The position numbers were made by a program, and so were the translations under genes. From NCBI GenBank assembly GCA_946546945.1, contig CAMNOU010000002.1, positions 1 through 64,000 of the forward strand: 64,000 bases of DNA, given 5' to 3'. Under the pieces are notes generated by a model. That model searched no databases, was not told the DNA's origin, and worked only from the letters and a program-made list of their open reading frames with translations. Each line of letters starts with the position of its first letter. The stretch's first letter is position 1. Below are positions 3,424 to 12,820 of the stretch, piece by piece. Source of the stretch: an uncultured Lachnospiraceae bacterium (GTDB taxonomy: Bacteria > Bacillota > Clostridia > Lachnospirales > Lachnospiraceae).

Positions 3424-3588
3424 TTATTTCCCTACAGCCCCATTACTCATGGAAAGAGTATTCTGAATAATCTCATAGGCATATATTTCTTTTTGGGATA
3501 GGAAATATAGAACCAATAATGGTATCGTTGATCGGTTATATTGAGGTTCAAAATTTTGTATATTTTTTGCATATACAACCATCTTCAT
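3424..3588 (-). pseudogene. truncated PadR-like regulator (N-terminal fragment)
   Basis: A 54-codon frame ending after NGAVGK. The segment TIPLLVLYFLSQKEIYAYEIIQ matches the first two helices of the PadR winged-helix family, in which the usual continuation is a recognition helix and wing leading to an 80-110 residue protein. Here a stop comes where the recognition helix should start, and I see no continuation downstream. There is no good ribosome site. It is oriented away from the peptide genes and shares their upstream region, so the intact ancestor may have been their local regulator. Confidence 0.5.
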
Positions 3589-3726
3589 TAGTATACTTCT
3601 AATCATATTTTTAGTCAAATGAGAAAATGTAATGTAATATATAATATAGTATAACATATAATCCAATATAACATGATAGGTTCATATAAAAAATGTAACA
3701 CAGATTTGAGAGTTAGATATATTATG

Positions 3727-3755
3727 TTGACATATATAATGCAATATGATATTCT
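3727..3755 (+). promoter_or_regulatory. promoter of the peptide genes
   Basis: A perfect TTGACA (3727-3732), 17-base spacer and TATTCT (3750-3755), 49 bases before the first peptide start. The -35 element sits inside the short palindrome ATGTTGACAT, a possible regulator site. The stretch 3625-3680 upstream is very A/T-rich with repeated TATAACAT-like words. Confidence 0.7.
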
Positions 3756-3803
3756 ATGGACACAAAGACCTTTGAACAATAAATTTGAAAGGAGAGAAAT
3801 TAC

Positions 3804-4022
3804 ATGAAAGTATTGGGGAAAAAGGAAATTCAAGAAACAATTGGCGGCGCGTTATGTACTGTTCACGGATTATGTGTAGGAACTTGTAAATTTTATCCTA
3901 GCGATGCCCATGCTAAGCATATTATAGGAACGGGGGCTACTATGTCTGTGGCAGAAAAGATGTATAAATCTAATCTAAAAAGACACAAAGAAGCAATGCC
4001 TTCATATAACCATTCTTTATAA
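3804..4022 (+). CDS. double-glycine leader peptide 1 (bacteriocin- or signal-like)
   Basis: 72 aa with ribosome site AAAGGAG 9 bases before the ATG. A short leader MKVLGKKEIQETIGG ends in a Gly-Gly (14-15), the processing signal cut by C39 peptidases, and the cognate exporter is encoded 280 bases downstream. The predicted 57-aa mature peptide starts ALCTVHGLC, has three Cys (18, 24, 28) in a C-x5-C-x3-C pattern, then a His/Lys-rich part and a C-terminal block from G42 shared with the next peptide. No modifying enzyme (LanM, radical SAM, YcaO) is encoded nearby. The LGKK start weakly recalls the CLI_3235-type bacteriocin precursors, but I cannot confirm membership. Confidence 0.85.
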   Translation: MKVLGKKEIQETIGGALCTVHGLCVGTCKFYPSDAHAKHIIGTGATMSVAEKMYKSNLKRHKEAMPSYNHSL

Positions 4023-4036
4023 TTGAGGATTTAATT

Positions 4037-4249
4037 ATGAAAAAATTAGATGATCAAAAATTATTTTTAACTGGTGGAACAACTTATACTAAAACGGCTA
4101 TGTGTTATGGGTTTAGAAAAGATTATAAACATTATCATTTTGGCCCGGTGACAGGCACTGGGACCTCAGCAAAAGCCGCAGAAACTATGTATAAGTCGAC
4201 TCTAAAAACACACAAAAGTGTATTGCCAAATTATTATCATTCATTATGA
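4037..4249 (+). CDS. double-glycine leader peptide 2, paralogue of peptide 1
   Basis: 70 aa, starting 14 bases after peptide 1 with ribosome site GAGGAT. The leader MKKLDDQKLFLTGG ends at Gly14, giving a 56-aa predicted product. Only one Cys (23) is present and the front half (TTYTKTAMCYGFRKDYKHYH) differs from peptide 1. The last 31 residues align without gaps with those of peptide 1: 18 of 31 are identical, including GTG, MYKS, LK, HK and the terminal HSL. This looks like a two-component peptide pair arising by duplication with divergence of the N-terminal half. The stop codon lies in the base of the hairpin at 4247-4279. Activity unknown. Confidence 0.85.
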   Translation: MKKLDDQKLFLTGGTTYTKTAMCYGFRKDYKHYHFGPVTGTGTSAKAAETMYKSTLKTHKSVLPNYYHSL

Positions 4250-4279
4250 AAGAATAGGGAGTATATCCCTATTCTTTCA
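4247..4279 (+). promoter_or_regulatory. 14-bp perfect hairpin between peptide genes and exporter
   Basis: TGAAAGAATAGGGA pairs perfectly with TCCCTATTCTTTCA around the loop GTATA. It starts at the stop codon of peptide 2 and is not followed by a clear T run. It therefore looks more like an mRNA-stabilising or processing element, or a leaky attenuator, than a full terminator. It would let the two small peptide messages accumulate above the exporter message. Confidence 0.7.
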
Positions 4280-4302
4280 TCTATAAAAAAGGATAAATTT
4301 CG

Positions 4303-6405
4303 GTGAGAAAAGAAGTATTTCAACATAATTTAAACGATTGCGGCCCAGCATGTTTAGCCACAGTATTAAATGCGTTTGGGTATAATTGTTCTCTAATAGA
4401 AGTTGCAGAAAAAATGAAGACTGGGAAAAATGGAACTAGTATAGCAGCTATAATAGAGACAGCAGAATTTTTTTTCTTAAGAGGGATAGCATATGAATCC
4501 ACTTTACAAGAAATATATGAAACTCAAAAAAGAATTCGCTTCCCAATAATTGCGCATATAATAGATAAAGAAAAAGGTGTTTCTCATTTCATAGTTTTGC
4601 GCAAGATAACAAAAAATAAAATATTCATTTTTGATCCAGGAAAAGGAGATAAAAAGGATAATTGGGAGCACTTCAACAACATATGGACTGGAATAATAAT
4701 AGTTTTTGACACTATGCCTGGATTTATCAGAAGGAAAAAGAGATTATATTCTATTCTGATGAATTATTTTGAATTGATTAAGTTTCAAGCAAGTGGCATT
4801 ATCACATTAATTATAATGATCATATTCACAAGTGCGCTTTCTTTTTTTGTTTCCGTTAATTATCAACAATTAGTGGACAAAGGAATTGTCGTTGGGAATA
4901 TAGAAAGAATTAGGGAAACAGGTGTGCATCTAATTGTCGCAAGTGTTGTAATATTTATAGTCTCTAACCTACAAAGCATCCTTTCTGCACATATTTCAAG
5001 AAACCTTCAAAGTAAATTAATGGACAAGTTTTATCTGAAAATGTTGTCATTACCAACAATACAATATGAGTATCAAGGATATGGAGGTATGATTGCGCGT
5101 TTTCAGGAATTAACTTATGTTCGTGAAATATTAATAGATGGAATGATATCGGTGATCATAAACTTATTTATGATCACAACCAGTATAATTATATTATTGA
5201 ATGTTAATGCGCTCCTTTTTTTTATTGTTCTTATTTTTATGGGGATCTACCTTCTTGTGGTTCTTGTATATAAAAGTCATATTGCGGAAGTAAATCGGGA
5301 TATGTTGTTGAAAAATAATGAATTAATATCCTTTCTTACCTCATCTATAACAGGAATGATGGCAATAAAAGGGTTTGGAATAGGAAATTTTTTTCAAAAA
5401 AAGTTTTATGATAGGAAGAAACAGTTTTTAGGGAGTTCTTATCATCAAGAAGTACTAGTAAATCAACAAAGTATTTTGATAGAATCAATTGAAAGTATAG
5501 GAATTATAGTGATTGTCATTGTTGGAGGGGTGCTCATTGTAAAGCAAGAACTTTCATTGGGAACGTTAGTTTTGTTTTTGTCTGTTATTAATTATTTCAC
5601 GCAACCTTTAAAAGGACTTATTCTGCTTCAACCCGTGATAGAAAATGCACGAAATTCTATAGATAGAATAAATGATGTTTTATTATCAACAAGTGAAAAA
5701 ACACGATATGGGGGGAAAAGTATACCGAAATCTTTTGAAGGAACAATTCAAATGAAAGAGGTGTGTTTTGAATATACTACAGGTGATCATACAATCTGGA
5801 AACTAAACATGCGTATAAATAAAAATACTCACATAGCAATTACAGGGGAAAGCGGGTGCGGAAAATCAACGATAGGAAAATTAATTGCGCAAATATTGGT
5901 TTGTGATTCAGGAGACATTCTTTTGGATAATGTTAGTGTAAGGGAATTCTCATTAGAAAGCATTAGAGAGAATATTATATATATTCCTCAGAATTCCAGT
6001 ATTTTTAAAGGCACGCTGTTGCAAAACTTATGTATAGATTGGAATGATCTCAAGAATGAAAGAGTTATAGATATTTTAGAGCAATGCCAAATAATGGATA
6101 TGATCAGCAATGATTTAGAGCAGTTAAATATGAATGTTGGAGATCTGGGAGAATTGCTATCAGGAGGGCAAAGGCAACGAATTGCTATAGCACGAGCACT
6201 GCTTCATATGCCGAAAATTATTATATTTGATGAAGCGCTGGGACAATTGGACAATAATAGTGAAAGACAAATATTTAATTATATACGTAAGCAGTGTATG
6301 CATACTACATGTATTTTTATCACACATAATGTTGATATTTCTCAAGAGTTGGATCAGGTTTTTTGGGTTGAGGACGGGCAGATTTATGTAAAGGGGGAGG
6401 TTTGA
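4303..6405 (+). CDS. peptidase-containing ABC transporter (C39 family) for GG-leader peptides
   Basis: 700-aa bacteriocin-type exporter that cleaves the leader after Gly-Gly while exporting the peptide. Residues 1-125 form the C39 peptidase, with Cys13 in NDCGPACLA, the His of VSHFIVL and the Asp of FDPGKGD as the triad. About 150-440 is the membrane domain (six predicted helices). About 480-700 is the ATPase, with Walker A GESGCGKST (515-523), signature LSGGQRQR (619-626) and Walker B IIIFDEA (Asp-Glu near 642-643). All catalytic motifs are intact. Starts at GTG with AAAAAAGGA upstream. Its stop abuts the ATG of the next gene. Confidence 0.95.
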   Translation: MRKEVFQHNLNDCGPACLATVLNAFGYNCSLIEVAEKMKTGKNGTSIAAIIETAEFFFLRGIAYESTLQEIYETQKRIRFPIIAHIIDKEKGVSHFIVLRKITKNKIFIFDPGKGDKKDNWEHFNNIWTGIIIVFDTMPGFIRRKKRLYSILMNYFELIKFQASGIITLIIMIIFTSALSFFVSVNYQQLVDKGIVVGNIERIRETGVHLIVASVVIFIVSNLQSILSAHISRNLQSKLMDKFYLKMLSLPTIQYEYQGYGGMIARFQELTYVREILIDGMISVIINLFMITTSIIILLNVNALLFFIVLIFMGIYLLVVLVYKSHIAEVNRDMLLKNNELISFLTSSITGMMAIKGFGIGNFFQKKFYDRKKQFLGSSYHQEVLVNQQSILIESIESIGIIVIVIVGGVLIVKQELSLGTLVLFLSVINYFTQPLKGLILLQPVIENARNSIDRINDVLLSTSEKTRYGGKSIPKSFEGTIQMKEVCFEYTTGDHTIWKLNMRINKNTHIAITGESGCGKSTIGKLIAQILVCDSGDILLDNVSVREFSLESIRENIIYIPQNSSIFKGTLLQNLCIDWNDLKNERVIDILEQCQIMDMISNDLEQLNMNVGDLGELLSGGQRQRIAIARALLHMPKIIIFDEALGQLDNNSERQIFNYIRKQCMHTTCIFITHNVDISQELDQVFWVEDGQIYVKGEV

Positions 6406-8556
6406 ATGAAAAAAAGGGCATTATTAGTTTTGTTGGTTGCAGTAATGATTCTAATGAGTGGATGTACAGACAAGAACAGTATAAACGATTCCGGAGAAAA
6501 GGAAAATACAGTAGGTTTTCGTATAAGTGACATTGAAATTCCAGAAGGGATCTTACAGATTAATAACATTGTAAGAGGTGAGGATGGCTTATTTTACATG
6601 TCAGCGATTAATGAAGATTGTGTTTCAGGATCTGTATGGAAAAAGGGAACTGGCCAGGATATATGGGAAAAAGAGTACGATTATGAACCGTTTTTCCCGG
6701 ATGAGGTGAGAACAGGGGAATATGAATTATATAGTTATATTTCTCCAAAGGGGGATTTGTATGGAGAGGCCTTTCATATAAAGGACAAAACCAGAAGGAT
6801 ATTTAGGATAAAGAATAATGTTGCCGAAGAAATATCATTTCAAATAGATGCCTCAGGAATTGAACAGGGGACAGATAACAGTATCATGGATTACCGTTTT
6901 TCCCCTGACGGGATTTTGGTTGTTGGAGATGAAAAGGGTCAGTTATATATTGTGGAAGAGGATAATCCGCAGAAGACAAAAGAAGTGCTGGATATGAAAG
7001 AGGATGGTTATTATTGGGACTATTATGTAAGTGCAGAGAACATTTATGTTTTAACAGAACAATCAATTGATATGTATAGTCTGGCAACAGGGGAAAAAAT
7101 AGATAATCAAGAATTAGAAAATTTTTCAGAGCAGTTTTGTGAAATGGAAGCAATGGCTCCTGAAAGCTATGCTTCACAGAGAATTATTGTAGATGACAGC
7201 GGAGAACATCTTCATATTATTTTGGAAAACAAAAAGGGTGTTTTTGAATATGATAATGGGATGCTTTCGCGGCAAATGGGTGCAGCCGGCACAAACTTTA
7301 TAAAGGCGGGACATTTAATAACCGGGATGGAATGGGATGGAAAGGATAGTTTTGTTGAAGTACTGGACTCTGTCCAGGATGGAGCACAGCTCTTAAAATT
7401 TACAAAAATAAACGAGTCGTATCATATATCAGAAAAACTGAGTGTGTTTACATTGCGCGAAAATGAAGAACTTCAAGAACTTACGAAAGAGTTCATGGCC
7501 GCAAATCCGGAAGTGGAGATTGATATCGAGGTTGGGCTAACAGAAGAGAATGGCATTACTGCTTCAGATGCGATTCGAAAATTGAATACAAAGATATTAG
7601 CAGGTGACGGCCCCGATGTAATTTTGATGGATGGGCTGAATGTTAATGACTACATTGAAAAAAAGATATTGCTGGAAGTGACAGATACGTATGAAGAGAT
7701 AAAAAATGAAAATGTATTATTTGATACTGTGGTTGAAACATACAGGGAAGGGGATGCGGTTTACGCGATACCTGGACGGTTTGAACTAATGTATGAGACT
7801 CAAAAAAATGATGCCGGTTCATATCCGGCTATGTATTCTGCAGAAATGGCGGCGATTCTGTATCGCACGAATTTGATGAAGAACCAGACTGTAGAGAAAG
7901 AAGCTATTGCGGAATATTATAAGTCCTTAGAAGAATTATATAAGCAGTGTACTCATGATATGACTGAACAGGATATGTATAAGTTATTAGAGAATCAGCA
8001 GCTTTTAAGTGAAGACTTACAAGAGGAACTGGCACTGTACAGCTTGGATGCTTCCCGAATATATGGCTACTTAAATGGAGTTCAGGACTATCAGTTTTTG
8101 AAAAATGGTTCAGAAGGGGAACTTTCCTACCGATTGCTGAGTCAGGATAATAAAATTATGTATGTTCCGATCATGGTATTTGGTGTGGTCAAAACAACTC
8201 CGCATAAGGATGCGTCGCTTGCATTTCTCAGATATGTTTTATCTCTGGACGGACAGAAGAATTTTGGAGGTAGAGGTTTTTCTATAAACAAGATGATTAC
8301 GGAAGGTGATTTACAAGGAGTAAAAGAGAATACAGTTTCCAATGATGTGTCTATAATAGATTTTAGCGGATTTACAGACGAACAAATAGAGGACATCTTA
8401 AAAGAACTTGAAAGTGCGCAGCTTGCAGCGAATACGGATGAGGTTGTGTTTGAGATCGTTAAGAATCAGGCGGTTAGTTATTTGTCAGGGAGTTTGTCTC
8501 TGGATGAGGCCGCATCTCAGGCGGAGAGAAAGATAAGGTTATACCAGGCAGAGTAG
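6406..8556 (+). CDS. large lipoprotein: N-terminal propeller-like part plus ABC solute-binding domain
   Basis: 716 aa. Signal peptide with lipobox LMSGC (Cys20) predicts a membrane-anchored surface lipoprotein. From about residue 345 (LREN..ELTKEFMAANPEVEI) to the end it resembles family 1 extracellular solute-binding proteins (GDGPDVILMDG, YAIPGRFE). Residues 25-340 are an unusual addition rich in short beta-strand-like repeats and acidic and aromatic residues, suggestive of a propeller-type or other beta domain. Typical solute-binding proteins are about 430 aa, so this is a two-domain form. The gene follows the exporter with no gap (GGAGGT ribosome site inside the exporter end) and precedes two permeases. 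The ligand is unknown; a peptide or its receptor complex is as possible as a sugar. Confidence 0.85.
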   Translation: MKKRALLVLLVAVMILMSGCTDKNSINDSGEKENTVGFRISDIEIPEGILQINNIVRGEDGLFYMSAINEDCVSGSVWKKGTGQDIWEKEYDYEPFFPDEVRTGEYELYSYISPKGDLYGEAFHIKDKTRRIFRIKNNVAEEISFQIDASGIEQGTDNSIMDYRFSPDGILVVGDEKGQLYIVEEDNPQKTKEVLDMKEDGYYWDYYVSAENIYVLTEQSIDMYSLATGEKIDNQELENFSEQFCEMEAMAPESYASQRIIVDDSGEHLHIILENKKGVFEYDNGMLSRQMGAAGTNFIKAGHLITGMEWDGKDSFVEVLDSVQDGAQLLKFTKINESYHISEKLSVFTLRENEELQELTKEFMAANPEVEIDIEVGLTEENGITASDAIRKLNTKILAGDGPDVILMDGLNVNDYIEKKILLEVTDTYEEIKNENVLFDTVVETYREGDAVYAIPGRFELMYETQKNDAGSYPAMYSAEMAAILYRTNLMKNQTVEKEAIAEYYKSLEELYKQCTHDMTEQDMYKLLENQQLLSEDLQEELALYSLDASRIYGYLNGVQDYQFLKNGSEGELSYRLLSQDNKIMYVPIMVFGVVKTTPHKDASLAFLRYVLSLDGQKNFGGRGFSINKMITEGDLQGVKENTVSNDVSIIDFSGFTDEQIEDILKELESAQLAANTDEVVFEIVKNQAVSYLSGSLSLDEAASQAERKIRLYQAE

Positions 8557-9414
8557 ATGAATATGTCGAGAAAGAATATGCGAAAAGGGATGTGTTTCCT
8601 GATACCGGGGATGGTGGGAATTGGCGTTTTTAAACTGATTCCCTTCGCCCGGGTGGTATACAATTCCTTCCATTCCATGATTGGAACACAAAATGTTGGA
8701 TTCTCAAATTATATGGAGGTCTTTCAAAACGAAGCCTTTCGGCTGGCTACGGTCAATACGATTCTTTTTATAATGATTGTGATGCCTTTGTTGTTGATTA
8801 TATCCCTGGTTATTGCTGCAATTCTAACCCATTTGAAAAGATTGGGAAGGTGGCTGCAAAAGTTTTTTTTGTTTCCGATGGCAGTGCCGGTAGTGTCAGT
8901 GGCACTTTTCTGGCATGCTTTATTTACGGATCAGGGTTTCTTGAATTCGCTTTTTATGTGGATGGGATTGCAGCCTGTGAGCTGGATGAATTCAAGATGG
9001 GCATTTATTATACTGGCAGGAACCTTTTTGTGGAAAAATCTGGGGTATGATATCCTCTTGTGGATGATTGGCATTCATATGATTCCCCGGGAAATTTATG
9101 AAGCTGCTATGATGGATGGGGCAGGATACATAAAGAGTTTTTTTCGGATAACTGTTCCCAATTTAAAACCTTCCTTTTTTGTAATCATTGTACTGTCATT
9201 AATGAATGTTTTCAAAGTTTACAGAGAAGCTTTTCTTGTAGCAGGAAATTATCCGCATGAGAGCATTTATATGATACAGCATCTGCTCAGCAATTGGTTT
9301 CGTGAGCTTTCCATTGATAAGTTGTCTGCGGCTTCTGTAATATATGCAATTATGATATCTGCAGTAGTAGTGATATTTTGGAAATGTCTTGAAGGAAGGA
9401 AGCATAAGGAATGA
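8557..9414 (+). CDS. ABC transporter permease, MalF/UgpA type
   Basis: 285 aa with six predicted membrane helices. The cytoplasmic EAA loop EIYEAAMMDGAG followed by FFRITVPNLKP (from about residue 179) is the ATPase-docking motif of binding-protein-dependent importers. Starts directly after the lipoprotein stop with no strong ribosome site, so it is probably translationally coupled. No MalK-type ATPase is encoded in the cluster, so a shared ATPase elsewhere would be required. Confidence 0.9.
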   Translation: MNMSRKNMRKGMCFLIPGMVGIGVFKLIPFARVVYNSFHSMIGTQNVGFSNYMEVFQNEAFRLATVNTILFIMIVMPLLLIISLVIAAILTHLKRLGRWLQKFFLFPMAVPVVSVALFWHALFTDQGFLNSLFMWMGLQPVSWMNSRWAFIILAGTFLWKNLGYDILLWMIGIHMIPREIYEAAMMDGAGYIKSFFRITVPNLKPSFFVIIVLSLMNVFKVYREAFLVAGNYPHESIYMIQHLLSNWFRELSIDKLSAASVIYAIMISAVVVIFWKCLEGRKHKE

Positions 9415-10163
9415 AAAAGATCCTGATTATAATGCTCACGATTATGGCTTTTATATTTAGTTACCCCTGTATTTATATTTTGCTGGGATCTTTTTTAGAT
9501 GGCCCGGGAATTTATGTTCAACTGCTGATTGACACACCACAATTTTGGAGATTATTTTGGAATTCTTTTTTTATAACAGCAGCAGTTTGTGTCGGGCAGG
9601 TCATTGTTGGAGTACCCTCAGCCTGGGGACTGGCCAGATACTATTTTCCGTTTCGGAATGTTTTCATTGTGTTGTATATCTTACTGATGATATTGCCTTT
9701 TGAAGTAATGATGCTTGCAGAATACATTACGTTGTCCGGGATGAACCTCACGGACAGCTTATGGGCGATTGTGCTTCCGGGTATTTTTTCTACATTCACA
9801 GCATTTATAGTCTATGTATCTTTTCGGAGGATTCCAAATAATATTTTGGAAAGTGCGCGGATAGATGGAGCCAGTGAATGGCAGATTCTTTGGAACATTG
9901 GAATTCCCGCTGCAAAGGAATCCATCATCTCTGCGATGATTCTGACATTTTTGGAGTATTGGAATCTTGTGGAAGAACCAATGATTTTTTTGCAGACAAA
10001 AAGTAAGTGGCCGATATCGATGTATATGTCATTTTCAGATATTCAGAATTTACGGCTGAATTTTTGTGTATCTGTAATTGCACTGATACCAGCTTCGTTG
10101 GTGTTTTTGGCAGGCGAGAAGTATCTGAATACAGGGATTATTACCTCGCATAATGAGGGTTAG
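9411..10163 (+). CDS. ABC transporter permease, MalG/UgpE type
   Basis: 250 aa, six predicted helices. EAA loop NILESARIDGAS followed by LWNIGIP (about 144-165). It overlaps the upstream permease by four bases (ATGA), the usual arrangement of heterodimeric importer permeases. Slightly shorter than carbohydrate permeases of the family (about 275 aa). Confidence 0.9.
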   Translation: MKKILIIMLTIMAFIFSYPCIYILLGSFLDGPGIYVQLLIDTPQFWRLFWNSFFITAAVCVGQVIVGVPSAWGLARYYFPFRNVFIVLYILLMILPFEVMMLAEYITLSGMNLTDSLWAIVLPGIFSTFTAFIVYVSFRRIPNNILESARIDGASEWQILWNIGIPAAKESIISAMILTFLEYWNLVEEPMIFLQTKSKWPISMYMSFSDIQNLRLNFCVSVIALIPASLVFLAGEKYLNTGIITSHNEG

Positions 10164-10167
10164 CATT

Positions 10168-10926
10168 ATGATACGAGCACACAAAACAAGGACTCTATGT
10201 ATAACATTTTTGGCCCTGGCGATTTTTTTGTCCGTTTTTTCAAGAACAATGAGAACAATTACTACAGCTGCCGTACAGATAGAAACTACAAAAATGGGTG
10301 TTGTTTCATTGTCCGCTGTTTGTGGAGATGAGAAGAAGGGATATTATGTATATCATGTGGAAGAGAGTCCATCTTTTTTTGGAGAAGAAATAAAGGCGGT
10401 TAGAAACAGCATTGAGATCCTGGATATAAAAGATGGTCTGGCATATGTCACTGGAATATATGAGGGAGATAGGATTATTGTTACATCCACTCGTATGTTG
10501 CAGAACGGAAATCCAATCGTGGTGTGGGATAACGATTCCGAGACGAAGCTTAGAGAGATTTCAACGCTTTCCAATCCATCGAAACAAAGTGCTATTATAG
10601 AATTAAAAGAGGGATTGAGAAAATTGCTGATGGGGAGTCTCTTTATATGGATACTGTTATGGATAGAATTAAGATGCATAAAAAAAATTCATAACTCCCC
10701 TGTAATATATAAAGCGATTGCTATTGTGATTCCTTTCGTCATTGTTACAGGACTCATGCTGATGCTGCGTTTTGGTCTGATCGGAAAGAATATGTTTCCT
10801 GCAGTATGGTCAGATCCGACAGGATGGGAAGAAATATATTCCATAAAAATGGAGGCAATAAAAGATATACTGTTTCATAGTAGTGATACGAACTCGGTAG
10901 ATGCATATTGGAATATTGATTATTAA
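10168..10926 (+). CDS. unknown membrane protein of the peptide/ABC cluster
   Basis: 252 aa, family not recognised. One N-terminal membrane helix (about 9-30), an extracellular region of about 125 residues rich in beta-strand-like segments (including NGNPIVVWD), then two helices (about 150-170 and 180-205) and a hydrophilic tail. The extracellular part faintly recalls the beta domains of MacA/HlyD-type adaptors, which would fit the MacB-like ATPase next to it, but this is only an impression. I use the ATG at 10168 (ribosome site GAGGG 8 bases before) rather than the in-frame ATG at 10153. Confidence 0.7.
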   Translation: MIRAHKTRTLCITFLALAIFLSVFSRTMRTITTAAVQIETTKMGVVSLSAVCGDEKKGYYVYHVEESPSFFGEEIKAVRNSIEILDIKDGLAYVTGIYEGDRIIVTSTRMLQNGNPIVVWDNDSETKLREISTLSNPSKQSAIIELKEGLRKLLMGSLFIWILLWIELRCIKKIHNSPVIYKAIAIVIPFVIVTGLMLMLRFGLIGKNMFPAVWSDPTGWEEIYSIKMEAIKDILFHSSDTNSVDAYWNIDY

Positions 10927-10961
10927 GTGTGAATATTCCAGAGAAAAAAGGAGCCGGACAG

Positions 10962-11288
10962 ATGGATGTTTTAACTGGAACGGGATTATCAAAGAGATAC
11001 AGGAATGGCGATGCGGAGGTCACTGCCTTGAAGGATGTGAATATCTGTATTCATCAGGGAGAGTTTCTGGCGATTACCGGTCCGTCAGGAAGCGGAAAAA
11101 CAACCTTGATGAATGTATTGTGTGGCCTGGAAGAACCGACAGGCGGGATGGTTTTTTGTAATGATCATTCCATCTGGGATATGGATCCGGATACTCTTTC
11201 CGGAGGACAGCAGCAGCGAGTCGCGATTGCAAGAGCGATTTGCGGCAGCCGTTCATGGACATCAACAGATCATCACATCAGAAAATAA
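10962..11288 (+). pseudogene. ABC ATPase of MacB/LolD type with internal deletion
   Basis: 108 codons. The N-terminal half is intact with Walker A GPSGSGKTT, then NDHSIWDMDPDT runs straight into the signature LSGGQQQRVAIARA. About 70 residues that normally lie between them, including the Q loop, are missing without a frame break. After ARAICGS the sequence diverges and stops, so Walker B, D loop and H loop are absent. It cannot hydrolyse ATP as it stands. The start at 10962 is set by AAAGGAG; an in-frame GTG at 10929 lacks a site. It marks the right edge of the A/T-rich cluster; its permease partner (FtsX-like) is missing. Confidence 0.85.
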
Positions 11289-11324: not shown

Positions 11325-11345
11325 ATTTATCAGTCGAGTGGCGAA

Positions 11346-11380
11346 AGCGTAAATCCAGATGATGGATTTGCGCTTTTTTT
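11346..11380 (+). terminator. terminator hairpin in the leader of the MATE gene
   Basis: A 12-bp stem, AAGCGTAAATCCA-side with TGGATTTGCGCT, followed by seven T. It lies between the promoter at 11295 and the MATE start at 11417. It may be an attenuator for the pump, or simply the end of the upstream cluster read-through. Confidence 0.75.
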
Positions 11381-11416: not shown

Positions 11417-12820
11417 ATGAGAGAAAAAACAGAGAATAAGATGGGCACGATGCCTGTGAACAGATTGATGCTGAATATGGGGATTCCGATGATCCTTTCC
11501 ATGATGCTGCAGGCCGTCTACAATATCGTGGACAGTGCCTTTGTGTCAAATATGGCACAGGACGGCGAGGCGGCGCTGAATGCACTGGCGCTGGCTTTTC
11601 CGGTACAGATGCTGATTGTGGCAGTGAGTATCGGTACGGGAGTGGGAGCGAATGCGCTGCTTTCGAAAAGTCTTGGGCAGAATGACCGGAGGAGGGCGAG
11701 CAAGACGGCGGGGAATGCGCTGTTTCTGGGAGCGGCGATTTCTCTGGCATGTGTTGTGTTCGGCCTGTTCGGAACCGGACTCTATATCCGGTCGCAGACT
11801 GCGAATCCACTGATTCTCGAGATGGGAGTCCGTTATCTCCGGGTCTGCTGTACCATTCCCTTTGGAGTAGTGTTTTTTGCGATGTTTGAGAAATTGCTGC
11901 AGGCTACGGGGCGCTCTCAGTTTTCGACGATCGCGCAGATCGTCGGCGCAGTGGTCAATATTATTCTGGATCCGATTATGATTTATGGTCTGCTGGGGGT
12001 TCCGGCGTTCGGTGTGCTGGGCGCCGCTTATGCTACGGTAATCGGACAGATCGCATCGGCGGTCACCGGCCTGCTTTTCTATCTGAAGTTCAATGTGGAG
12101 ATTGACAAATCCGTAAAGAATATGAAGCCGGACAGGGGAATCATCAGGGCAATTTATGCGATCGGTGTTCCTGCGATTATTGCACAGGCGCTGATGTCTG
12201 TGATGACGTATGGAATGAACGTTATTCTGGGCAGGATCGACGAATCTGCGGTGACCGCCTATGGACTGTATTATAAGATCCAGCAGTTTCTTTTATTTGC
12301 CGCCTTCGGCCTTCGCGATGCTATTACGCCAATCGTTTCCTACAATCACGGAAAGAAGGACAGGCAGCGCATCAATGACGGCATCCATTATGGAATGAAG
12401 TATACATTACTGATTATGGCGGCAGGACTTGTGGCGATTGAAATATTGGCGAAGCCGTTCTCCGCAGTATTCGGACTCTCCGGACAGACCCAGACCCTTT
12501 GCATCAGCGCGATGCATTTTATCACACTGAGTTTTATTTTTGCCGGGGCAAATATTGCTTTTCAGGGGATTTTTCAGGCACTTGACGGAGGAATGGAGTC
12601 ACTGATTATTTCCGTCTGCCGGCAGTTCCTGTTTGTTCTGCCGGTTGCATTTGTGTTTTCTCTGATTGTCGGGAAGAACCTGGAAATGATATGGCTGGTA
12701 TGGCTGACTTTCCCGATCGCGGAGGGGATTTCTGTGCTGATCTCCATGCTTTTCATGAGCAGAATCAGAAAAAGATTGGATCTGGTTTGTACTGTTCTAT
12801 TTTCAGAAAGTGTGTTATAA
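11417..12820 (+). CDS. MATE family efflux pump
   Basis: 467-aa multidrug and toxin extrusion protein with about 12 predicted helices in two homologous halves (NMGIPMILSMMLQAVYNIVDSAFV in the first, IGVPAIIAQALMSVMTYGMN in the second). Likely a cation-coupled exporter of drugs or metabolites at the cytoplasmic membrane; the substrate cannot be told from sequence. GTG 11405 and ATG 11408 are in frame, but the ribosome site AGAGGTG fits the ATG at 11417 (9 bases). Confidence 0.93.
   Translation: MREKTENKMGTMPVNRLMLNMGIPMILSMMLQAVYNIVDSAFVSNMAQDGEAALNALALAFPVQMLIVAVSIGTGVGANALLSKSLGQNDRRRASKTAGNALFLGAAISLACVVFGLFGTGLYIRSQTANPLILEMGVRYLRVCCTIPFGVVFFAMFEKLLQATGRSQFSTIAQIVGAVVNIILDPIMIYGLLGVPAFGVLGAAYATVIGQIASAVTGLLFYLKFNVEIDKSVKNMKPDRGIIRAIYAIGVPAIIAQALMSVMTYGMNVILGRIDESAVTAYGLYYKIQQFLLFAAFGLRDAITPIVSYNHGKKDRQRINDGIHYGMKYTLLIMAAGLVAIEILAKPFSAVFGLSGQTQTLCISAMHFITLSFIFAGANIAFQGIFQALDGGMESLIISVCRQFLFVLPVAFVFSLIVGKNLEMIWLVWLTFPIAEGISVLISMLFMSRIRKRLDLVCTVLFSESVL

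Follow-up and report, generated by a model that had tools for sequence, protein, structure and literature searches.

The row of genes analysed here occupies positions 3727 to 11288 of a 64,000-nucleotide stretch of DNA (the window) from an uncultured Lachnospiraceae bacterium (assembly GCA_946546945.1, contig CAMNOU010000002.1; 65 contigs, 92% complete, 4.2% contamination). In this window locus, a peptide cassette of two GG-leader peptides and a C39 peptidase-containing ATP-binding cassette (ABC) exporter is followed by a transport module. The lipoprotein, two permeases, adaptor and MacB-like permease of this module belong together across Lachnospiraceae as a conserved set that is not peptide-specific, and linkage of the set to a C39 exporter is confined to the genus of the window locus among the genomes examined. 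The features of the locus are as follows.

3727..3755, plus strand: sigma-70-like promoter match, TTGACA-17-TATTCT, with TG before the second hexamer (consensus match only)
3804..4022, plus strand: GG-leader peptide 1, 72 amino acids; predicted mature form 57 amino acids, pI 9.2, 3 Cys (open reading frame, ORF)
4037..4249, plus strand: GG-leader peptide 2, 70 amino acids; predicted mature form 56 amino acids, pI 9.6, 1 Cys (ORF)
4246..4280, plus strand: 15-bp hairpin without a T-run, between peptide 2 and the exporter (folding against shuffles)
4303..6405, plus strand: C39 peptidase-containing ABC exporter, 700 amino acids (Pfam, NCBIfam, motifs)
6406..8556, plus strand: lipoprotein, 716 amino acids, with an N-terminal propeller-like part and a C-terminal solute-binding domain of the maltose-binding protein (MBP) type (Pfam, profile, structure model)
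8557..9414, plus strand: PERM1, MalF/UgpA-like permease with EAA-type loop (Pfam, NCBIfam, motif)
9411..10163, plus strand: PERM2, MalG/UgpE-like permease with EAA-type loop, short by about 30 amino acids (Pfam, NCBIfam, profile, motif)
10153..10926, plus strand: in-frame fusion of the N-terminal membrane segment and C-terminal barrel of an adaptor (membrane fusion protein, MFP) with the C-terminal part of a MacB-like permease (periplasmic core domain, PCD) (relatives' profiles)
10929..11288, plus strand: ABC ATPase fragment, MacB/LolD/FtsE-like proteins among the top matches (Pfam, NCBIfam)
11343..11377, plus strand: terminator-like hairpin with T-run, likely the end of the unit (hairpin/T-run scan)

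An ORF check placed all cassette and module genes on the plus strand, in the order and at the coordinates given by a first-pass annotation of the window. The overlaps or very short gaps described there were borne out: the exporter joins the lipoprotein, and the lipoprotein PERM1, without a gap, while PERM1 overlaps PERM2 (9414 versus 9411) and PERM2 the fusion protein (10163 versus 10153). The genes may be co-transcribed. Pfam found Peptidase_C39 (E 1.9e-30), ABC_membrane, ABC_tran, SBP_bac_1 (2.1e-10) and, twice, BPD_transp_1, and together with the ORFs and motifs these confirmed both the two GG-leader peptides with a complete C39 exporter and the two-domain solute-binding lipoprotein with two MalF/MalG-like permeases on the same strand. 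The one strong promoter of that annotation was recovered as a good match at 3727..3755, the sole one with TG before the second hexamer, but its 10/12 score is equalled by ten others in the window, where 43 promoter-type matches were found against 33.7 expected from shuffles. Rfam returned two tRNA matches over the window and nothing else, namely a tRNA-Lys gene at 75-148 and a partial match at 1-51, a few kb upstream of the low-GC island.

The two peptides are 43% identical to each other and carry the GG at residues 14-15 (peptide 1) and 13-14 (peptide 2); the GG-leader consensus fits peptide 1 better than peptide 2. Neither had a Pfam match, and NCBIfam gave noise only. A profile of the two found no convincing homologue beyond the window locus in 397 family genomes: there were four weak matches, and the best of them (E 2.1e-4), the one inspected, was rejected for its in-frame stops and surroundings that read as a MATE-type gene. 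The same profile had no match in viral contigs, nor had peptide 2, the one searched there, in plasmids. In the exporter, the C39 Cys, His and Asp stretches were all found, as were Walker A, LSGGQ and Walker B; among the at least 5000 plasmid matches listed for it, none reached 60% identity. An exporter with Peptidase_C39, ABC_membrane and ABC_tran and intact motifs, adjoining small peptides with a GG-type leader, is shared in a row with class II bacteriocin and other GG-peptide cassettes. Unlike class II bacteriocin cassettes, the window locus has peptides of no known family, no recognised immunity gene, and a transport module behind. The hairpin at 4246-4280 folded at -21.8 kcal/mol, compared with -6.3 (standard deviation, sd, 2.4) in mononucleotide shuffles, and may act as an mRNA stabiliser or an expression-ratio element.

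The predicted structure of the lipoprotein (pLDDT 80.5) is mostly beta in its first half and of MBP type in its second. Compared with the PDB, the model matched CbpC, YesO and Lmo0181 among its top entries, and MBP as well. With a 40-sequence lipoprotein profile, CbpC, which belongs to a transporter of Clostridium thermocellum, was the closest solved solute-binding domain (E 2.7e-24), and the N-terminal part matched WD40 and sialidase propellers at about 1e-9 to 1e-5. NCBIfam had no match for the window-locus lipoprotein; for its counterpart in L137, a Hespellia locus, it gave a MalE match only, far under the cut-off. At 438 amino acids in its PDB entry, CbpC is too short for the propeller seen here. 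Its pocket is blocked and it bound no tested sugar, and loss of the gene left growth on glucose, cellobiose and Avicel normal (PMC9601137). A figure legend of the same paper names an acrA gene among five sugar-transporter operons, the operon not being specified in the text consulted, and the excerpts of PMC8303734 and PMC7471329 do not settle the content of the CbpC operon. Four of the loci collected below (L101, L152, L196, L199) have three or four propeller/solute-binding lipoproteins in tandem before a single permease pair.

Both permeases contain the DGA of the EAA-type loop, and the piece missing from PERM2 lies after the first membrane helix when compared with relatives. Like a CUT1 carbohydrate importer, the locus has a solute-binding protein and two EAA-loop permeases, and since both loops are kept an ATPase is expected. 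Elsewhere in the genome, as with CUT1 importers of the YesO type, a UgpC/MsmX-type ATPase is encoded (C23:30731-31834; 483.6 bits against the NF008653 cut-off of 432), and four weaker ABC matches to NF008653 all fell under the cut-off. Its neighbours, read from the sequence, are a CdaR-type regulator, a dUTPase and a GpsA-type dehydrogenase, with no permeases among them. ATPases of the MsmX type are known to be shared among importers (PMC7658222), and such a shared ATPase probably powers the two importer permeases. MsmX-powered importers of the YesO type likewise consist of a solute-binding protein and MalF/MalG-like permeases without an ATPase of their own; unlike them, the module has a propeller fused to its lipoprotein, is accompanied by an adaptor and a MacB-like protein, and usually lies beside a two-component system.

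The next gene, called an unknown membrane protein in the first-pass annotation, turned out to be an in-frame fusion of an HlyD/MacA-like adaptor and a MacB-like permease, both shortened. With profiles made from relatives, the fusion protein itself excluded, it scored 51.4 bits against the MFP profile (model 15-53 and 433-505 of 509) and 26.4 bits against the PCD profile (model 190-304 of 355), for which the unrelated PERM1 scored 5.8 bits in a search of three proteins only. The adaptor/MacB half of the window locus has shrunk to this single protein of 257 amino acids, and here as in PERM2 the losses keep the reading frame. A model of the MacB-like protein of L137 (pLDDT 89.8, pTM 0.84) started with a helix, followed by a mixed domain and more helices towards the C-terminus, and Foldseek placed MacB, the YknZ outer domain, LolCDE, a pneumococcal non-canonical ABC transporter and BceAB on top, with E 3e-7 to 7e-4 and low TM-scores of 0.23-0.40 by query. 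The same protein had no NCBIfam match at E 0.01 or better, and the Pfam MacB_PCD matches in three relatives were all under the curated cut-off.

The MacB-like ATPase remnant described at the end of the row was found as a fragment with a Pfam ABC_tran match, but its membership is doubtful. Its GC content is 46.9%, equal to the window mean, compared with 31.8-39.2% for the other genes of the locus and 37.2-39.2% for the four preceding ones, and on a reading of its sequence it has neither the stretch from Walker A to the signature nor Walker B. The fragment is probably a neighbour rather than a part of the module.

The distribution of the module was then determined, all genome counts including the genome of the window locus. 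Searches for the lipoprotein matched 24 of 98 relatives (E 1e-3 or better), 8 of the 20 genus genomes (1e-30) and 76 of the 397 family genomes (E 1e-80 or better; 96 places, with at most two scored per genome). We collected 20 neighbourhoods from the search of 98 relatives, 60 of the 82 other places from the 397-genome search (tandem copies within regions already collected, and places of low rank, were passed over) and 79 further loci from public species genomes, taken from the best 80 of 199 relatives. With the window locus these made 160 loci, of which 150 were distinct after ten duplicates were dropped. The first 20 loci and the window locus supplied the sequences for the module-gene profiles, which are hence not independent of those loci; because window-locus proteins were included, the lipoprotein and permease scores are not independent either. 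Among the 119 distinct loci with more than 6 kb downstream, PERM1 and PERM2 were each present in 109, the adaptor in 110, the MacB-like protein in 94 and all four in 92. A response regulator and a histidine kinase lay within 8 kb in 114 of the 136 loci with more than 3 kb upstream, and this two-component system is absent beside the module in the window locus and in L040, a locus of the same genus. Named genera with module loci include Roseburia, Blautia, Robinsoniella and Murimonas. Literature searches aimed at the module or its coupling found no description among open-licence papers.

An importer that has no intact ATPase of its own and is joined to a peptide exporter, which the first-pass annotation had singled out, was seen, but the missing ATPase is not special to the window locus. 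An ABC-type ORF lay within 8 kb in 39 of the 150 distinct loci, and in 140 of them no same-strand ABC-type ORF was found within 500 bp of a module-type gene. The ten exceptions comprise the window-locus fragment, an ORF preceding the lipoprotein in L071, and ORFs in eight loci, mostly of Blautia, that belong to a separate adaptor-ATPase-adaptor set. When the 918 ORFs flanking the module were clustered and only the initial residues of the 22 largest clusters were read, generic ABC ATPases were the top recurrent family besides the two-component system (28 of 143 loci), all others reaching 10 at most; read in this way, sugar-degrading genes of many families could escape the survey.

Some loci vary the arrangement. 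In six of Blautia type (L167, L168, L170, L175, L183, L194), an adaptor, a MacB-type ATPase, a second adaptor-like protein and a MacB-like permease lie upstream of the module, and the histidine kinase and response regulator genes are placed around the lipoprotein gene. In L033 (minus strand, 11492-12605), the place of the two-component system before the module is taken by proteins with sigma-70 region 2 and region 4, each in its own frame, and by a small protein containing a membrane-like stretch; its PERM2 is split into two overlapping frames (7222-7626 and 7623-8069) and its adaptor is short. In L043 (9412-10138), a likely antitoxin gene, judged from its sequence, and a PIN-domain gene precede the lipoprotein gene.

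Next to this wide distribution, the linkage to C39 is rare. Two of the 150 distinct loci, the window locus and L040, had a C39 gene no more than 10 kb from the lipoprotein, with the exporter within 2 kb in both; upstream sequence exceeded 3 kb in 136 of the 150 and 9 kb in only 34. C39 domains occurred in 89 of the 397 family genomes and the MacB-like profile in 93, weak generic matches included. In lists compared by eye, for which the lipoprotein search scored at most two places per genome and the MacB-like search at most five, C39 met the lipoprotein only in genomes G000 and G009 and the MacB-like gene only in G009. The first-pass annotation had taken the importer to be coupled to the peptide cassette and had named homologues mostly found without peptide genes as evidence to the contrary. 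Across the family that is the situation, the lipoprotein module nearly always standing without a C39 neighbour; the importer half is part of a conserved Lachnospiraceae module and is not peptide-specific. The co-occurrence count suggested there gave this family-wide rarity, but also coupling within the genus: 6 of 20 genus genomes have C39 domains, and in 3 of the 20 (window locus, L040 and L207) the C39 gene adjoins the module or its permeases. The further suggestion of peptide-guided nutrient scavenging found no support from any analysis run.

The three linked loci differ in content. L040 runs from a 79-amino-acid GG-type peptide through the C39 exporter and two DUF6273 proteins to all five module genes. 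L207 has the end of a DUF6273 protein, the C39 exporter, both permeases, the adaptor and the MacB-like gene, and its contig ends just upstream. No single set of parts is constant across the linkages, because the pump-like half is gutted in the window locus and L207 has no lipoprotein gene in the available sequence. DUF6273 proteins thus stand next to the exporter in both other linked loci (L040:6334-7128, L040:7157-8032 and L207:9660-10097, minus strand), and none was found in the Pfam scan of the eight window-locus cassette genes. L040 likewise has a hairpin between peptide gene and exporter (-29.7 versus -17.4, sd 3.1, in shuffles). Upstream of another congener C39 exporter, a 96-amino-acid ORF (L204:2909-3199) starts with a long stretch that resembles a leader and closes with GG; its tail is rich in Cys. 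A divergent PadR gene, as upstream of the L040 cassette, was suspected at 3424-3666 on the minus strand of the window and rejected for want of Pfam support and similarity. The promoter regions of the window locus and L040 aligned too loosely to support a common operator. A comparison with empty sites, anchored on the downstream MATE gene, was given up, since the matches of that gene in congeners were just 54-62% identical.

Base composition sets the cassette apart. Across the 40 window ORFs of at least 200 amino acids, GC at third codon positions (GC3) averaged 54.2 (sd 8.0), and the five lowest values were those of the C39 exporter (26.2), the fusion protein (34.5), the lipoprotein (35.7), PERM2 (41.8) and PERM1 (43.0). 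In L040 the exporter had 27.3 against 44.8-52.3 for the module genes, and in L207 48.9 against 59.6-63.9, with the DUF6273 piece lower still at 39.7. Because the GC3 of the exporter is well below that of the module genes in the window locus and L040, a separate origin of cassette and module is suggested, and in these two loci the cassette is likely a separate acquisition.

The exporters of L040 and L207 are 62% identical, and either is 28-29% identical to that of the window locus; given this divergence, the linkage is either old and kept, or has arisen twice. In the PERM1 tree, the window locus grouped with L033, which has no C39 (98/99), and L040 with L207 (100/100), deeper forks being unresolved. 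Two independent joinings were first drawn from this tree and from exporter scores (328 bits for the best match elsewhere versus 233 for G009, a partial match), and were withdrawn since later trees do not reject one clade. BLAST with the window-locus exporter scored L207 at 346 and L040 at 304, and a 10-row exporter tree held the three together (99/98; two short congener C39 pieces, L205 and L206, were excluded from the exporter trees). With three long rows removed from the PERM1 tree, neither a clade of the window locus, L033, L040 and L207 (approximately unbiased test, p-AU 0.585) nor one of the window locus, L040 and L207 (p-AU 0.217) was rejected. Either a single old joining took place and the exporter was lost beside L033, or cassette and module were joined twice; the trees settle neither.

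Taken together, we tentatively read the locus as a bacteriocin-like cassette that has captured an envelope-stress or peptide-handling module for self-protection or sensing. In this mechanism, the two peptides would be cut at the GG and exported by the C39 transporter, as in a two-peptide bacteriocin-like system, and the cassette would have come to lie in front of a transport module that was already there and that occurs widely in Lachnospiraceae. The full module would comprise the propeller/solute-binding lipoprotein, two permeases on a shared ATPase, an HlyD/MacA-like adaptor and a MacB-like permease without ATPase, mostly next to an OmpR-type two-component system. It may sense or clear envelope-active peptides in the manner of BceAB, YknWXYZ or AS-48EFGH, as a member of none, and in the genus of the window locus it would serve peptide cassettes as a self-protection or sensing part, the two-component system being absent. 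With the adaptor/MacB half shrunk to a fusion in the window locus, what work remains would fall to the lipoprotein and importer.

The likeness to peptide-handling systems is partial. AS-48EFGH and YknWXYZ also have an HlyD-like adaptor and a MacB-like permease; unlike them, the module has no intact dedicated ATPase and adds a solute-binding lipoprotein and two importer-type permeases, and in the window locus the adaptor and permease are fused and shortened. Measured against MacAB/YknXYZ, the relatives have a MacB-like permease with periplasmic core fold and an HlyD/MacA-like adaptor alongside (weak family scores), of which the window locus keeps the C-terminal part and the adaptor ends only, and a cognate MacB/YknY-type ATPase is not a regular constituent of the operon, same-strand ABC-type ORFs adjoining a module-type gene in the ten loci named above only. 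Like BceAB-type systems, the module sets a MacB-fold protein beside a two-component system in Firmicutes; unlike them, it has neither a BceA-type ATPase nor a ten-helix permease, its MacB-like protein having about 4 membrane helices in the model compared with ten for BceB (PMC5985334). YknWXYZ, one of the Gram-positive kin of MacB, protects from SDP (PMC4887032), BceAB with its two-component system and AS-48EFGH are MacB kin acting on peptides (PMC5985334), and both AS-48EFGH and YknWXYZ guard against, or export, own peptide toxins (PMC5985334, PMC4887032).

Several observations weigh against a peptide-handling role. No C39 was present in the available sequence of 148 of the 150 distinct loci, and L207 has the exporter and, as far as its contig reaches, no lipoprotein gene. 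The half of the module that most resembles a peptide pump is the very half gutted in the window locus. YesO, Lmo0181 and MBP, which the solute-binding domain also matched, bind sugars, and CbpC itself had been reported to do so in earlier studies that PMC9601137 and PMC7471329 cite. No argument for the role would be stronger than independent recruitment, which the trees do not establish; the 30-row exporter tree leaves the window-locus exporter unplaced among long branches and does not reject one clade (p-AU 0.256). The neighbourhood could also reflect an insertion hot spot, or an island shared within one genus.

One alternative, possible if somewhat doubtful, is that the module is an ordinary CUT1-type carbohydrate importer with unusual accessory genes, and that the cassette landed beside it by chance or uses its expression context only. 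The SBP_bac_1 and BPD_transp_1 domains, the UgpA/UgpE-like permeases, the sugar-binder-like fold, the MsmX/UgpC-type ATPase encoded apart from any permease and the near absence of C39 across the loci all agree with it. Against it stand the constant adaptor, MacB-like partners and two-component system and the linkage to C39 in 3 of 20 genus genomes; no flank gene family recurs in most loci, within the reach of the survey described above, and CbpC bound no tested sugar (PMC9601137), although earlier reports differ.

It is unlikely that the locus is a decaying island, in which module and ATPase are relics and only the peptides and exporter matter. The adaptor/MacB fusion, the shortened PERM2 and the ATPase fragment look like decay, as do the split PERM2 and short adaptor of the closest congener locus, L033, but the lipoprotein, PERM1 and PERM2 remain long open frames with conserved motifs and the losses in PERM2 and the fusion are in frame. 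Least probable of all is a pheromone route, with the exported peptides bound by the lipoprotein and taken up through the permeases: the seamless C39-lipoprotein junction, the long open frames kept by the lipoprotein and permeases and the missing two-component system in the window locus and L040 would suit it, but L207 shows no lipoprotein gene in the sequence available and known peptide importers use other, Opp-type solute-binding families.

Returning to the captured peptide-handling module, its broadest form would be a previously undescribed hybrid transporter, linked to a two-component system and without its own ATPase, in which a propeller/solute-binding lipoprotein, importer permeases and a MacA/MacB-type pair together sense or clear antimicrobial peptides, widespread in Lachnospiraceae and taken up by peptide producers of one genus as a dedicated immunity or sensing unit; as a whole this is rather unlikely to hold. 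The module does combine importer and exporter parts, a mix that neither known class covers. The C39-linked loci provide a concrete lead on what it does in Lachnospiraceae: its substrate may be the adjoining peptides, and since these are encoded next door, the function of the module becomes testable.

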